From the NCBI GenBank assembly GCA_024279865.1, contig JAJRRC010000005.1, positions 1 to 61,256 of the forward strand: DNA of 61,256 nt. Reading direction: 5' to 3'. Made by a program: the position numbers and the translations under genes. Origin of the DNA: Planctomycetota bacterium (GTDB lineage: Bacteria; Planctomycetota; Phycisphaerae; Phycisphaerales; Phycisphaeraceae). Of this stretch, positions 1,482-7,729 are shown piece by piece (the first letter of the stretch is position 1; each line of letters opens with the position of its first letter). The notes under the pieces are model-generated. The model was not told the origin of the DNA. It saw only the letters and a program-made list of their open reading frames with translations, and searched no databases.

Positions 1482-2948
1482 TTACTGGAGCAGGCTCAAG
1501 ACGCTTTGAGAACTGTTATTCGCCAGTGCCAAAACCGAAGTTCCTGCATTGACCAGTACCTGGGCGCGGGTTAGGCGTGCGGTTTCAAAAGCAAAGTCTG
1601 TATCTCGCACACGACTTTCACTGGCAGTGAGATTTTCGAGCGCGACGGTTTGACTTCTGAAGGTTGTATCAAGCGTATTTCGTTCAAACGCACCGAGCCG
1701 TCCACGGAGAATCGCGATTTGATCGGTTGCGACTTCCAGAATGAGCGACGCTTCTCGCTGTTTACCGCCGACGAGACTGTTTACGCCCCCGGAGGCTACA
1801 GAATTGAGGAACCCTTTGGATTGATTTCCCAGCTTGCTTGCCGCCACGGATGGAAGTCCAAAGCCAACGCGTTGAGAAGTATCAATCGATGCTCCGATTT
1901 GGAAGTCTGCACCGCCCCCAATGATCGTAAAGGAGGTACTTTGCAGCGTCTGGGACGCAGCTCTGGTGAGTTCCATTTCGACATTGATGGTTTGGGAACG
2001 CAGGCTGACTTTTTGTCCATCGCCCAATGCAAGGTTGCCGTTGACCAGTGCAAGCACATCTTCTCCGGTATCACGTATGATGGCTGCGCCACCCTGTTGA
2101 TTGAAGGTCTGGAAGAAAGATCCGGAATTTCGATCCAATTTTCGCACACTGACAAAGGCATCGCTACCCACTTCTTGGGAGGTGATGATTAAGCCTGAGG
2201 TTTGATCGGTCGGATCGACAAGATAAGCCGAGACACCGGTGGCATCTGAAACCTGATTAAGGTTAAAGACCACTGCTGAAAGCGAGGTACCACTGGTGAC
2301 ACTGATAACTTGCACGCCGGTTGGGCCGGTGACTTCAAATTCAACACTGGAGAGGAACGCCCCTGGCGAGCCCGCGGTGTTACCAGAGATGAATAGCTGT
2401 GCGGTTTCAGCACTGGCGAGCACTTCAACGGTGACGGGGATCGTTGAATTGGTACCAAAGTTAGCACCAAAGATATCCACATCGTTGAGGATGCTAGTAT
2501 CTTCACCACTGGTGAGGTATTCCAACGAGCCGTTGAGCACTTTGAGACCTGCAAAGGTGGTGGAATTTGAGATTCGGGTGATCGATTCGATGGCCGAGTC
2601 GATTTGCAACTGGTTGGCTGCAATTTCTTCACTACTAAAACCGCCTGTGTTGGCTGCTTCAACAATAAGTCCCTGAATATCCACCAACAATTGCGAGATT
2701 TCAGACAGTGCCGCCTCGGTGGTGGCAATGACGTTTGATGCTCGCTCGATGTTGCTGATCGCCTGAGTGGTACTGGATATCTCCGAACGCAAGCGTTCAG
2801 ACACAATCAGCCCAGCGGGGTTATCAGCACCACGGTTGATTTTCAAGCCCGTGCTCAAACGTCGAAGGCTGGTACTGAGGTCCATATTGGACCGAGCCAG
2901 ACTTTGTTGAGCGACAATAGATCCGATGTTTGTATTGATTCTCGACAT
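1482..2948 (-). CDS. fliC: Flagellin (filament subunit)
   Basis: A 488-residue flagellin, exported by the flagellar type III apparatus and polymerised into the filament. The N-terminal D0/D1 domain (about 1-140) is conserved, with SLRRLSTGLKINRGADNPAG; the C-terminal D1/D0 region (about 400-488) has RVRDTDFAFETARLTRAQVL and ends in SLLQ. The middle (about 150-390) is a variable surface domain. It is the last gene of the operon, directly after csrA, and has a very strong Shine-Dalgarno (AAGGAGG, 6 bases before ATG). That ribosome site lies in the loop of a 7-bp hairpin resembling a CsrA-binding site, so translation is probably controlled by CsrA and FliW. Confidence 0.97.
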   Translation of the reverse strand: MSRINTNIGSIVAQQSLARSNMDLSTSLRRLSTGLKINRGADNPAGLIVSERLRSEISSTTQAISNIERASNVIATTEAALSEISQLLVDIQGLIVEAANTGGFSSEEIAANQLQIDSAIESITRISNSTTFAGLKVLNGSLEYLTSGEDTSILNDVDIFGANFGTNSTIPVTVEVLASAETAQLFISGNTAGSPGAFLSSVEFEVTGPTGVQVISVTSGTSLSAVVFNLNQVSDATGVSAYLVDPTDQTSGLIITSQEVGSDAFVSVRKLDRNSGSFFQTFNQQGGAAIIRDTGEDVLALVNGNLALGDGQKVSLRSQTINVEMELTRAASQTLQSTSFTIIGGGADFQIGASIDTSQRVGFGLPSVAASKLGNQSKGFLNSVASGGVNSLVGGKQREASLILEVATDQIAILRGRLGAFERNTLDTTFRSQTVALENLTASESRVRDTDFAFETARLTRAQVLVNAGTSVLALANNSSQSVLSLLQ

Positions 2949-2970
2949 GACAATCCTCCTTGATTGTCCT
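2949..2970 (-). promoter_or_regulatory. CsrA-type hairpin presenting the flagellin Shine-Dalgarno
   Basis: Read on the minus strand, arms GACAATC and GATTGTC form a perfect 7-bp stem closing a six-base loop AAGGAG; the stem ends at the base before the flagellin ATG. CsrA favours GGA in hexaloops of short hairpins, so the GGA of the ribosome-binding site is displayed exactly as a CsrA target. Binding would block ribosome entry. The geometry is seen; the function is inferred from the neighbouring csrA and fliW genes and from the known Bacillus hag leader. Confidence 0.75.
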
Positions 2971-2992
2971 GTTCGTGATGGTTCGGTTTGCT

Positions 2993-3012
2993 AACCCGTA
3001 ATCCTGTAGGTT
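2993..3012 (-). promoter_or_regulatory. Possible second CsrA site in the flagellin leader
   Basis: About 45 bases upstream of the first hairpin, the minus strand carries ACAGGAT within a loop closed by AACC and GGTT. ACAGGA matches the core of the CsrA consensus. A pair of sites at this sort of distance is known in the Bacillus hag leader. The stem is only 4 bp, so the support is modest. Confidence 0.4.
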
Positions 3013-3079: not shown

Positions 3080-3343
3080 TTACTGAGGGCCCGGCGGTTT
3101 TGGCTTTTTCCCGCCTAGCTTTCTCAGGTTTTCGTTAGCGATATTCAGATCATCTACCTGGATGTTGCTCGCTTGGGCATTTTCACTGCGGATCGCTTCG
3201 TACACTTCTTTTCGGTGTACCTGAATCGATCTCGGTGCGTTGATACCCAGTCGAACTTTGTCTCCACGAATGTCGACGACGGTGATTTCAATCTCGTCGC
3301 CGATCATGATCGTTTCATCGCGTTGGCGCGAAAGCACCAGCAT
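3080..3343 (-). CDS. csrA: Carbon storage regulator CsrA, translational repressor
   Basis: CsrA is a small dimeric RNA-binding protein that represses or stabilises mRNAs carrying GGA hairpin loops. The protein is 87 residues: the first 60 form the canonical fold, starting [18 protein letters not shown] and with the [10 protein letters not shown] helix, followed by a longer basic, proline-rich tail ending KKPKPPGPQ. The start was placed at 3343 because GGAAGGAG lies 7 bases before that ATG; a longer upstream reading would remove the conserved N-terminus. It sits between fliW and the flagellin gene, the arrangement in which CsrA represses flagellin and FliW relieves it. Confidence 0.96.
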
Positions 3344-3441
3344 GTTCAGGCTCCTTCCATGGGCCTTGAAAACGTCTTTCACACGAAAAACGCTTCCTGT
3401 TCAACTGACGCCTCCTTGCGTCAGACACTTCCGTTACCAAC

Positions 3442-3888
3442 TCAAGCAGACATCGCTTGAACCGGACTTCCCAGTTCCACCAAAGGAACACGGGTGGTAA
3501 ATCGACGGTCACTGAGGACCAACTGTTCACCAACCTTGGTCGCCACATTGATGACCAGCGGTCCTTGCAGATTGCCTGTGAGCAATCGGTCGACCTTGTT
3601 GACAATCACAAAGACCTGAGCGTTACTAATGGACTGAATGCCAAGCTCTCGTAACTGATCCTGTTTCACTGGCACCTTGTACGTGGGAACAAAAAGGCTC
3701 GGGTCTGTCACCACAAACGCAAGGTCCGGGGCTTCGGTTGATTGCAGCCAGAGAAAGTAACCTTCCTCGCCTGGCTCAATGAGGACGTAACGGGTGAAGT
3801 TGGAAAAGCCCAACAATCCCTTGGGGAATACAATCACGCGATTGTCATCCACCTCCACTTGTCCGAATCTTGATGTGTTTACGATCAT
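3442..3888 (-). CDS. fliW: Flagellar assembly factor FliW (CsrA antagonist)
   Basis: FliW is a cytoplasmic protein that binds either flagellin or CsrA, so free flagellin releases FliW onto CsrA's partner cycle and couples flagellin synthesis to export. The residues FGQVEVDDNRVIVFPKGLLG and YFLWLQSTEAPDLAFVVTDP are family signatures, and the length of about 148 residues is normal. I prefer the internal ATG at 3888 (GGAAGGATGG lies about 7 bases upstream); an alternative ATG at 3918 would add ten residues. It lies between flgL and csrA in the same orientation. Confidence 0.93.
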   Translation of the reverse strand: MIVNTSRFGQVEVDDNRVIVFPKGLLGFSNFTRYVLIEPGEEGYFLWLQSTEAPDLAFVVTDPSLFVPTYKVPVKQDQLRELGIQSISNAQVFVIVNKVDRLLTGNLQGPLVINVATKVGEQLVLSDRRFTTRVPLVELGSPVQAMSA

Positions 3889-4036
3889 TTCCAATCCATC
3901 CTTCCGACGACCATCCATCCTGGACCTTTGTTCATCTCCCCCGGGGCGATGCGAACGGAATCCTTCCGTTCGATATTTTTCTTCGATCAGTCACGACCGG
4001 TCGTAGGCCGTGTCTGATGCGCAACTGCTGCGCCAC

Positions 4037-6013
4037 CTAGCGCAAAAAGTTCAATAAGCTCTGCTGCAAATTTTGCGCTCCGACGCTCAAACTTGCCTGC
4101 AATTGTTGCTGCAACTGTTGGAACTTCAAAATAAGTTCCGTCATATCGCCTTCTTGCAGGTCACTTAGCAAAATTTCTTCTGTAATCTTCAATTCAGAGG
4201 ACCTTTCTTGTGCTCTTTCGGCTCTTTGAGTTCGAATGCCGATTCGAGCACGGCCTTGTGTCACAAACTCTGTGTCACGTTCTATATCACTTGTAGCAAG
4301 CGAGATGCCACGCGAGTCATTTTTCAGCAAACTTTCTTTTAAATTAAATAAATGTGTAAAAATGCTGTCTACCTGCACCGCAGCGTTGTCCTGGCCTGTC
4401 ATGGTGTTGGCAGTTCCTGCGTTGATGAGGATGCCCAGGTCTGTTGCTGCGAGTGATTCGTTGAGTTGGGTGACTTCAAAGTTAGTTGCACCGGCGGTGT
4501 TGTCTTCGAGGGTAAAGCCGTTGCCGTCGGCAGCGAGTCCGATGTTAAAATCGGTTCCCAGATCGCCCGGGTTCCCCACGCTCAACCCCGCGGCAGTGGC
4601 TGCAGCGCCAAACGTGGCCAAAACATCTTCTACGTCTACCGCGTTATCTAAATTAATATCAAAGGCTCTGCCATCATGGAGCGAAACACGCACATCATCT
4701 TCGCCTTGAGCCCGATCCACTCCCACGCCACGATTAAAATCCCTGAGTTTGGTAGTGGTGCTGAAGGTTCGCACGCCCAAATCTCCTGCGGTGGTTCCAC
4801 CTGCATTTTCGCCGATGGTAAGATTAATGCCGCTGACTTCACTGATGAGGTTCATGCCGGTCCCAGCATCATTGATTTCAAAGCGTAATCCCATGTGCAG
4901 GCCGTCGATCACATTGTTGAGGTCTTGCACGGTTTTGGCATTGGAGAAGTCTGCGATTTTGGTGGTAGCGCCCTGGGTAATTTTTAGGCCGCCGGTCCAA
5001 TCCACACTTGGCCCTAAATCGGTCAAGAGGGTTTGCATGGTCAGGTTCACGCCTGGGTCTGCTCCAGCGACGGTGCTTGCGTTGGTTGCGGTCAGTTCAA
5101 TTCCCAAGTCTTGTGCGGTCACGCCAGCAGGCAAATCCGAGATGCTCAAGGCATGTCCTGCCGCCGCGGTTAATTCAAAGCCACCGCCTGCAAGCTGAAA
5201 GCTCCCTGCTGTGGGGTCAATATTGTCAATGGCATTTTGAACACGAGTCACCACATCATTCATGTTTTGAGCGGTATTGAGGTCCACCGTCGCCAAGGTT
5301 CCATCGACATTGATCTGGAAGGTGCCTCGTCGAATGCCTCGCCCCAGCGTGCCGTCAAGATCATCTAGCCGGGTGCTTGGGAAGGCATTGGGGCTCAAAT
5401 CCACCGCTCCCGCCACGCGGCCGGACAGTGCGTTGAGGCCGTCGGCCCCGTTGTAGTTATAGGCCAGTGGATCGCTCAAGCCTGCCTGGCTGATCATATC
5501 CGTGGTTCCACCGAGGTAGCGAATACCGCCGAGGAATGGTTCAAAGGCCAGGTTGTCTACATTAGCGCGGTTGGCGTTGCCGGTGAACAGGCCGATGCCG
5601 CCGATGCGGCGATTGGTGATATCCATGAGGCCGCTGATTTGTCCATCCACGACGGCTGCTTCTGCTTCACGGGTGGCAGCATCGGAGGTGATTCCGATTT
5701 GGCTCAATCCCAGCGAATGTGCTTCGATTGCCAAAGCGCCGATATCGCCCATGGCCTGATCGACGTTGTTAAGCATGCCAACAATATGATCCAAGTTGCG
5801 ATCCTGTTGAGCGCGTGCGTCGAGTTGCTGATTGATCAGCAAAATAGCCGACGTACGAGCCGGAGCATCGGAGGGCTTGTTGATTTCTCTGCCCGTTGAG
5901 ATCGCCAATTGAGCTTTGTTTAAGTCATCTTGGGTACGACGCAACTGTAGTAACAGCTGATTGCTGCTAAGCAATGAAGTCGTGCGGCCGTAACTGGAGG
6001 AAATGCTACTCAT
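4037..6013 (-). CDS. flgL: Flagellar hook-associated protein 3 (FlgL), expanded
   Basis: FlgL joins the hook to the filament. The N-terminus (TTSLLSSNQLLLQLRRTQDD, ISTGREINKPSDAP) and the C-terminus (ILLSDLQEGDMTELILKFQQ) are flagellin-like and typical of FlgL. At 658 residues it is about twice the usual length. The extra middle (about 200-540) holds three related segments, each with a VQxxI or similar helix, a DLG(I/V) turn and an ADGNGF or GGGFEL strand, resembling flagellin_IN-type hook domains. It starts 10 bases after the flgK stop. The extra domains probably decorate the junction; their role is unknown. Confidence 0.93.
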   Translation of the reverse strand: MSSISSSYGRTTSLLSSNQLLLQLRRTQDDLNKAQLAISTGREINKPSDAPARTSAILLINQQLDARAQQDRNLDHIVGMLNNVDQAMGDIGALAIEAHSLGLSQIGITSDAATREAEAAVVDGQISGLMDITNRRIGGIGLFTGNANRANVDNLAFEPFLGGIRYLGGTTDMISQAGLSDPLAYNYNGADGLNALSGRVAGAVDLSPNAFPSTRLDDLDGTLGRGIRRGTFQINVDGTLATVDLNTAQNMNDVVTRVQNAIDNIDPTAGSFQLAGGGFELTAAAGHALSISDLPAGVTAQDLGIELTATNASTVAGADPGVNLTMQTLLTDLGPSVDWTGGLKITQGATTKIADFSNAKTVQDLNNVIDGLHMGLRFEINDAGTGMNLISEVSGINLTIGENAGGTTAGDLGVRTFSTTTKLRDFNRGVGVDRAQGEDDVRVSLHDGRAFDINLDNAVDVEDVLATFGAAATAAGLSVGNPGDLGTDFNIGLAADGNGFTLEDNTAGATNFEVTQLNESLAATDLGILINAGTANTMTGQDNAAVQVDSIFTHLFNLKESLLKNDSRGISLATSDIERDTEFVTQGRARIGIRTQRAERAQERSSELKITEEILLSDLQEGDMTELILKFQQLQQQLQASLSVGAQNLQQSLLNFLR

Positions 6014-6022
6014 CGTTTTTTA

Positions 6023-7729
6023 CTAAATTAGCCCCAAAATAGTTTGCATCATTTCATCAACCACGCTTAAAAATCGGGCGCTTCCTTGAAACGCTCGCTG
6101 ATAACTCGAAAGATTGATCACTTCTTCGTCCGAGTTCACGCCACTGATTGCTTGCTGCTGGGCATTGAGACTGGACTGTACAATTACATCTGCTTCAAAC
6201 GTACTGCGAGCCTGTCCAAGACGGCCTGCGTATTCTTCAATGTGACGATTCCATTGTTCGGTCAGGCTAATGCCACCCAAATCAGAAAGTGATTCAGATC
6301 GCAAGCTAGACAAGGCCAAGGCATTGGTGTTGCCGCCAGGCACATGCCCTTGGGTCACTGCCACTTTACCTGGGTCGTTGCTGATTATTTGGTTGATGTC
6401 GATGGTCGCGCCATCTTTGCCTGTGAAAAAGGTATTGATTCCTGCGACTGCGAGAAAGCCACTGGAATCATCGCTGAAAGAGAGTTCAAAATCGGAGCCT
6501 GAGGTTTGCAGCACCAACTGTCCGCTGGCAGAAACCGAAGCCGAAAGGTTATCGACATTGTTCAAAGCTGTCGCAATGCTGTTGAGCGTGGCATCATTGG
6601 TTGGATCAATGCCATCGAGATCCACGTCGATGTTGGTGGTGATGCGTTGACCTGTTTGAGCTTGGGTGAGATGAACTTGAAAACTGCCATGCTTGACATT
6701 AAAGGCAAGCAACGCATCTTCGGAATTCAAAACCGCGGTCGCATTTTCAAACCGTGTCACACCAGTCACCGATTCAAAACCCGTGGTTCCCTGGCCCTGA
6801 CTGTGTAGCAAGTTAACCTGATGAATCAGATTGGCTGCAAAGTCATCCAAATCTGCCATCGCACCATTGACGCTGCTTTCACGAGCTTCTAAAAGACCTT
6901 TAATTTCACCAGCCGTCGCAGGCAAAGGTGAACCATCAGCCCGCAGAACCAGTTGCAAATTCATATCATCGCCATTGGCGGTGCGTTTGAGTTGAATACC
7001 ACGGTTGGTTCCGTTGAGAATCACCGGGATCGAACCGACAAAAACGTCTACCTTGCCATCGCGTTGTTCCACCGTGGAAATGTCGACGTATTTGCTCAAT
7101 TCAGCGAGCAACGCATCGCGTTCATCCCGCAGACTGTTGGCTTGTCCATTGGTGTTTTCAACACGAGCCACTTCATTGTTGATCACCGCCAAACGGCCAA
7201 GCACTTGATTGGCTGAAGCCACCGCTGCATCCACGGACTCGTCCACCTGATCACGAAGACTCAGCATATTTCCGCGTAAATCCTGCACAAACGAACCCAA
7301 CTTACGGCCCTGCTCAATGACCAGCGTTCGCTTGGAATGGTCATCAGGCGTATTGGCTAATTAACTCCACGCATCAAAAAATTCTGTTAAATTGGTGGAC
7401 AAATCAATGTCCGTAAATTCATTTTCCAAGGCTTCAATCTGAGCCAACACGTCTTGCTGAACCTCCGATGCCGCTTGGTCAGAAATCCCACTGCGAATGC
7501 GACTCTCCAACGCTTCGGAAATGCGTCGGGTGATACTCTCCACGGTCACACCACTACCCACGAGAAGGCCGCTACTAAGGTTCCCGGTTTGAACAGGTGT
7601 CAGCGAAGTCGTCTGGCGGTGATAGCCTGGCGTTGAGACATTGGCAAGGTTATTACCAATAACCTCGAGCCCTGTCTGGCTGGCGAGAATGCCGGCACGT
7701 CCGATTTGTAAGGCATTACTTAAGCTCAT
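6023..7729 (-). pseudogene. flgK: flgK, hook-associated protein 1, interrupted by an in-frame TAA
   Basis: FlgK is the first hook-filament junction protein. Residues 1-122 are a normal N-terminus (SNALQIGRAGILASQTGLEV, GNNLANVSTPGYHRQTT) ending LTEFFDAWS; then comes TAA at 7361-7363, and the same frame resumes with LANTPDDHSKRTLVIEQG and continues to the C-terminus, which has the typical EEVINLSSYQRAFQGSARFL. Homologues usually have Glu (GAA/GAG) at the position of the stop, so one base change accounts for it. Without the stop the protein would be 568 residues. A TTG at 7300 could in principle restart the second part, but that product would lack the essential N-terminus. It may be a real nonsense mutation, a suppressed stop or a sequence error. 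Confidence 0.88.

Follow-up and report, generated by a model that had tools for sequence, protein, structure and literature searches.

In Bacillus subtilis, fliW and csrA adjoin the flagellin gene hag (Yakhnin 2007 and Mukherjee 2011, as cited in PMC7652899), the hag leader contains two CsrA sites, one of which lies over the Shine-Dalgarno (SD) sequence (PMC7652899), and translation of csrA is coupled to that of fliW (PMC6529632). In Campylobacter jejuni, the 45-nt flaA leader carries ANGGA motifs in two clear stem-loops, the second loop being located over the ribosome-binding site, with compensatory changes among relatives, and FliW acts as the antagonist of CsrA (PMC4894983). In Escherichia coli, where CsrA is antagonized by sRNAs, glgC-type leaders combine a strong upstream GGA hairpin with a site at the SD (PMC7652899). 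The CsrA/RsmE consensus is an ANGGAN hexaloop, and CsrA-binding hairpins selected in vitro mostly had four or fewer contiguous base pairs (PMC7652899). We found no paper on CsrA/FliW regulation of flagellin in planctomycetes among the open-access papers searched.

The locus described here is part of the window, i.e., the whole 61,256-nt stretch of contig JAJRRC010000005.1 (Planctomycetota bacterium, Phycisphaeraceae) that was analyzed. A flagellar operon on its minus strand encodes, in this order, a rod-binding-domain protein, FlgN, FlgK, FlgL, FliW, CsrA, and flagellin (based on open reading frames and Pfam). A first-pass annotation of this DNA had placed csrA and fliW as the next two genes upstream of flagellin, and both the Pfam matches and the coordinates agree with it. 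The genes and RNA features considered below are the following:

1482-2948, minus strand: flagellin, 488 aa, ATG at 2948-2946 (Pfam Flagellin_N 2.2e-26, Flagellin_C 2.5e-13)
2949-2968, minus strand: hairpin H1, GACAATC-AAGGAG-GATTGTC, directly before the flagellin ATG (sequence, fold, conservation, covariation)
2949-2955, minus strand: 3' arm of H1
2956-2961, minus strand: loop of H1 (SD core)
2962-2968, minus strand: 5' arm of H1
3001-3007, minus strand: ACAGGAT, which may be a further, weak site for CsrA in the flagellin leader (sequence)
3080-3343, minus strand: csrA, 87 aa, start ATG at 3343 (Pfam CsrA 9.8e-26)
3350-3359, minus strand: csrA SD region TGGAAGGAGC, with two GGA (sequence)
3405-3424, minus strand: hairpin H2, CTGACGC-AAGGAG-GCGTCAG, perfect 7 bp, in the fliW-csrA gap, ~60 nt before the start codon of csrA
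3442-3918, minus strand: fliW (Pfam FliW 2.6e-34; PDB 2aj7, 5dmb), for which an internal ATG near residue 11 may be an alternative start
4037-6013, minus strand: flgL, the upstream operon neighbour (TIGR02550 5.5e-34, below the TIGR02550 cut-off)

The first-pass annotation had likened this layout to that of the Bacillus hag leader, and the comparison holds for the site at the SD and for the fliW and csrA genes adjoining flagellin (PMC7652899), although the second GGA of this leader is weak. C. jejuni flaA is closer still, as it shares the ANGGA loops, one of them over the ribosome-binding site, and the FliW antagonist, which is predicted here (PMC4894983). It differs in belonging to another phylum, in that fliW is not adjacent to csrA in Epsilonproteobacteria, and in its two stem-loops within a short leader, whereas in the window a single strong hairpin and the weak GGA share a leader of 131 nt. 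Where B. subtilis couples csrA to fliW, the window has a 98-nt gap that contains H2, a strong CsrA-type hairpin absent from the first-pass annotation. The csrA leader of the window (H2 together with an GGAAGGAG SD) resembles the E. coli glgC type, the likely antagonist here being FliW and not sRNAs. Flagellin control of the hag/flaA type through CsrA and FliW appears to be the most likely function at this locus.

The SD core AAGGAG forms the six-base loop of H1 on a perfect 7-bp stem, an arrangement that had already been recognized in the first-pass annotation and that is confirmed by the sequence, the folds, and chance counts. H1 was present in both the MFE and the centroid fold of the flagellin leader (z = -5.3), its inner pairs had a probability of ~1.0 in sequence context, and in isolation it reached -7.1 kcal/mol (order mean -5.2). 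The 20-mer occurred once in the window when up to 3 mismatches were allowed (chance expectation: none). Of the 170 A-N-GGA-[AG] sites that the window contains, just three lay in a hexaloop closed by 5 or more base pairs, and the two with 7-bp stems were H1 and H2. A search of the window against Rfam gave no family at or above its gathering score. The loop bases are unpaired, as implied by the earlier view that the stem-loop exposes the ribosome site rather than hiding it, but the final base of the SD and the entire SD-to-AUG spacer are paired in the stem, so the hairpin alone should slow initiation somewhat.

In order to follow H1 in relatives, flagellin leaders were taken by their own coordinates, with the SD rather than the pairing as anchor, and the adjacency of csrA was rechecked by tblastn. 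Flagellin N-terminal searches gave matches in 125 of the 151 genomes of the order (relatives being mostly metagenome-assembled genomes), and the named loci with related flagellins (GTDB contigs) belonged to Planctomycetota, mostly to Phycisphaerae/Phycisphaerales. The SD lay in a hexaloop closed by 5 or more base pairs in 91 of 114 csrA-linked leaders of the same order (full 7-bp stem in 38, no 5-bp stem in 23), and in 0 of 35 SD-bearing leaders without an adjacent csrA. Three further flagellins of the genome itself, two on contig C57 and one on C83, are not csrA-linked, and none of them has the hairpin. When the 3' arms were reshuffled among the leaders, the average stem fell from 5.40 to 4.34 ± 0.08. 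In 104 of the 114 leaders the loop ended 7 or 8 nt from the ATG. In relatives, the SD of many flagellins not linked to csrA is TTCACGGAGGA-like and has a stem of only 2 bp, perhaps a weaker CsrA site.

Covariation was scored on 72 distinct hairpins, class-level leaders included, which were likewise SD-anchored and not selected for pairing. The score was 0.197 vs. 0.135 ± 0.014 in shuffled sets, a value reached in none of 500 shuffles; both sides changed at six of the seven H1 pairs, and all slid registers scored worse. The third pair was G-U in 16 of the 72 hairpins. As the stem barely varies in the home family, much of the covariation is supplied by other families; the outer two pairs are loose outside the home family. 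Compensatory stems include GTAATC/GATTAC (L198), TTAATC/GATTAA (L211), and TCAGTC/GACTGA (L221), while GACAAAC/GTTTGTC was found in one genus (L034, L045, L059, L060, L064) and GCAATC/GATTGC in several families. The shuffle ignores kinship, and therefore we give more weight to substitutions seen in different families and to the control leaders without csrA. The covariation check suggested with the first-pass annotation thus found a stem that is both kept and covarying across the order and the class, and conserved only upstream of a flagellin that follows csrA.

The loop consensus from 152 csrA-linked leaders is A-N-G-G-A-G, with A at position 1 in 151 of them, a variable position 2 (A71 C56 T16 G9), and an invariant GGA, which overlaps the flagellin SD. 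As the final G of the loop and the closing G are demanded by the SD itself, and the GGA both by the SD and by our anchoring, these bases carry no weight. It is not obvious, on the other hand, why an SD alone would be free at position 2 yet fixed at position 1, while a loop of this kind with its C-G closing pair fits the ANGGAN hexaloop of CsrA/RsmE.

A second loop at ACAGGAT had also been proposed for the flagellin leader. Its sequence and the 45-nt spacing between its GGA and the first one stand, but the structure is weak: only 2 bp of pairing remain in the MFE fold, where the GG itself is paired, and we rejected it as a strong hexaloop and regard it as a GGA site lacking a clear hexaloop. 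A strong second hairpin was present in the flagellin leaders of 13 of 109 relatives, where 0.4 would be expected. The SD hairpin of genus g14 (L022, L023, L113, L121, L122, L125) has degenerated, and just upstream lies a GC-rich GCCGCG-ACGGAG-TGCGGC hairpin, as though the strong CsrA site had shifted there, which makes this flagellin leader resemble the E. coli glgC type too (PMC7652899). Two members of family f100 share the position of an upstream hairpin, with arms CCGGTTGCG/CGCAACCGG and CCGGTCGTG/CACGACCGG.

Upstream of csrA, ANGGAN hexaloops with a stem of at least 6 bp were found in 28 of 81 non-redundant leaders, about a third, whereas dinucleotide shuffles of the same leaders contained a mean of 0.13 such hairpins and never more than one. 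Loop positions 2 and 6 and nearly every stem pair vary among them; as these sequences were picked for pairing, pair counts on them are circular and illustrative only, and the shuffle is the fair test. H2 was more stable than H1 in all 30 genomes having both (mean -12.7 vs. -6.2 kcal/mol), and H1 stems have 44% GC within leaders of 63% GC. We read the lower stability and GC content of H1 as selection for a hairpin that the ribosome can open, a constraint from which H2 would be free. The stability of H2 and its conservation upstream of csrA point to csrA autoregulation, for which it is likely the site. Closer to the start codon, many relatives have GGAAGGAG at the csrA SD. A covariance model of both hairpins ranked H2 first and H1 second in the 3.4-Mb genome, a ranking that shows the rarity of equals and not an independent discovery, as both were in the training set. 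Directly after H2, a TTG (3404-3402) is a possible leader ORF start.

The matching hairpin before csrA also bears on the alternative that fares best, namely that H1 is a start-site RNA structure independent of CsrA, which modulates or thermally gates the access of ribosomes or shields the mRNA, its loop being kept as an SD only. With the spacer paired up to the AUG and a stability that is only moderate, H1 could indeed affect initiation without any protein. We nevertheless consider this explanation unlikely, as such a structure would not be expected only at the flagellin that follows csrA, nor with a loop free at position 2 and fixed at position 1, nor with a counterpart before csrA that is away from any SD.

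The proteins fit a FliW-CsrA system, with both fliW and csrA present and a CsrA that has a C-terminal extension. The best PDB match of this CsrA was 5dmb_D, the CsrA of the FliW-CsrA complex, aligned over residues 2-80. The alignment with E. coli CsrA is gapless, and of the positions that we singled out for their presumed roles (L4, R6, R7, V42, and R44), all are kept as read off the alignment except R7, which is replaced by Q.

We therefore favor, with considerable confidence, H1 as a candidate CsrA-binding hairpin that would control translation of the main flagellin, the csrA-linked one, with antagonism by FliW and autoregulation through H2. AAGGAG is both the ribosome-binding sequence and the hexaloop, so CsrA and the 30S subunit would compete for the same bases. 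In the absence of CsrA, the modest A/T-rich stem of H1 could be opened by the ribosome, while bound CsrA would cover the loop, hold the spacer stem, and turn flagellin translation off. FliW would inactivate CsrA during flagellin export and set it free once flagellin accumulates in the cytoplasm, and CsrA would limit its own synthesis through the stronger H2. From the conserved hairpins and their gene context we infer CsrA binding, repression, FliW antagonism, and csrA autoregulation alike. Given that ligands selected in vitro mostly had at most four base pairs, the 7-bp stem of H1 is longer than favored, which counts against it as a CsrA site.

CsrA could also bind H1 and activate flagellin, by opening the hairpin or by stabilizing the mRNA, as E. 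coli CsrA opens the ymdA SD hairpin and stabilizes flhDC mRNA (PMC7652899). This appears improbable, since the bound GGA is the SD itself, and CsrA and the 30S subunit should exclude each other; moreover, fliW is adjacent to csrA, and the comparable circuits in Bacillus and Campylobacter work by repression. A transcription-factor operator in the DNA, to which the perfect 7 + 7 bp dyad of the home family would be suited, is hardly credible, as the G-U at the third pair breaks a DNA dyad and keeps an RNA stem, the distance to the ATG is fixed, and the SD is always at the dyad centre.

Under the preferred reading of H1 as a CsrA site, the fliW-csrA-flagellin operon of Phycisphaerae may use two graded CsrA hairpins, a strong one that sets the CsrA level through autoregulation and replaces the fliW-csrA coupling of Bacillus, and a weaker one, its weakness maintained by selection, over the flagellin ribosome-binding site, a model to which we give an even chance. 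The hairpin on the csrA side may be a variant for a FliW-type operon, given that B. subtilis couples csrA to fliW translation (PMC6529632). If the model is true, the graded hairpins would form a homeostasis circuit with set points encoded in RNA. Autoregulation of csrA within a FliW-type system is a further prediction. More broadly, the flagellin-homeostasis switch of Bacillus and Campylobacter probably also works in the distant phylum Planctomycetota, judging from these genomes, and such an extension of the CsrA-FliW checkpoint and its RNA element would support flagellin control as an old role of CsrA. The more than 70 distinct flagellin hairpins and ~30 csrA hairpins are natural candidate CsrA sites that vary in stem strength and loop letters, and could be useful for learning what CsrA requires.

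Several other observations were made in the operon and the genome. Consensus patterns of sigma-54 and sigma-28 were not found in the csrA-linked flagellin leaders. An intergenic 7-bp AAGGAT hexaloop (L242, contig C40:6930-6949 of the genome, G000), adjoining a quinolinate-synthase-like (nadA) gene, had a covariance-model score nearly equal to those of the flagellar hairpins, and another match (L243) lies inside a nusG-like gene; as further CsrA targets both look incidental, L242 being either a target or a chance match. A second, more divergent CsrA paralogue (~79 aa frame) is encoded in the same genome (contig C70:124839-125000, outside the window) and a divergent paralogue occurs in most searched genomes of the order. 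Finally, flgK (6023-7729, minus strand) has an in-frame TAA at 7361-7363, ~122 codons in, after which the frame reopens straight away; the stop may reflect either an error in sequencing or a genuine nonsense mutation. Lacking FlgK, a cell would be unable to assemble a filament, and a genuine mutation would be relevant to the control of flagellin.
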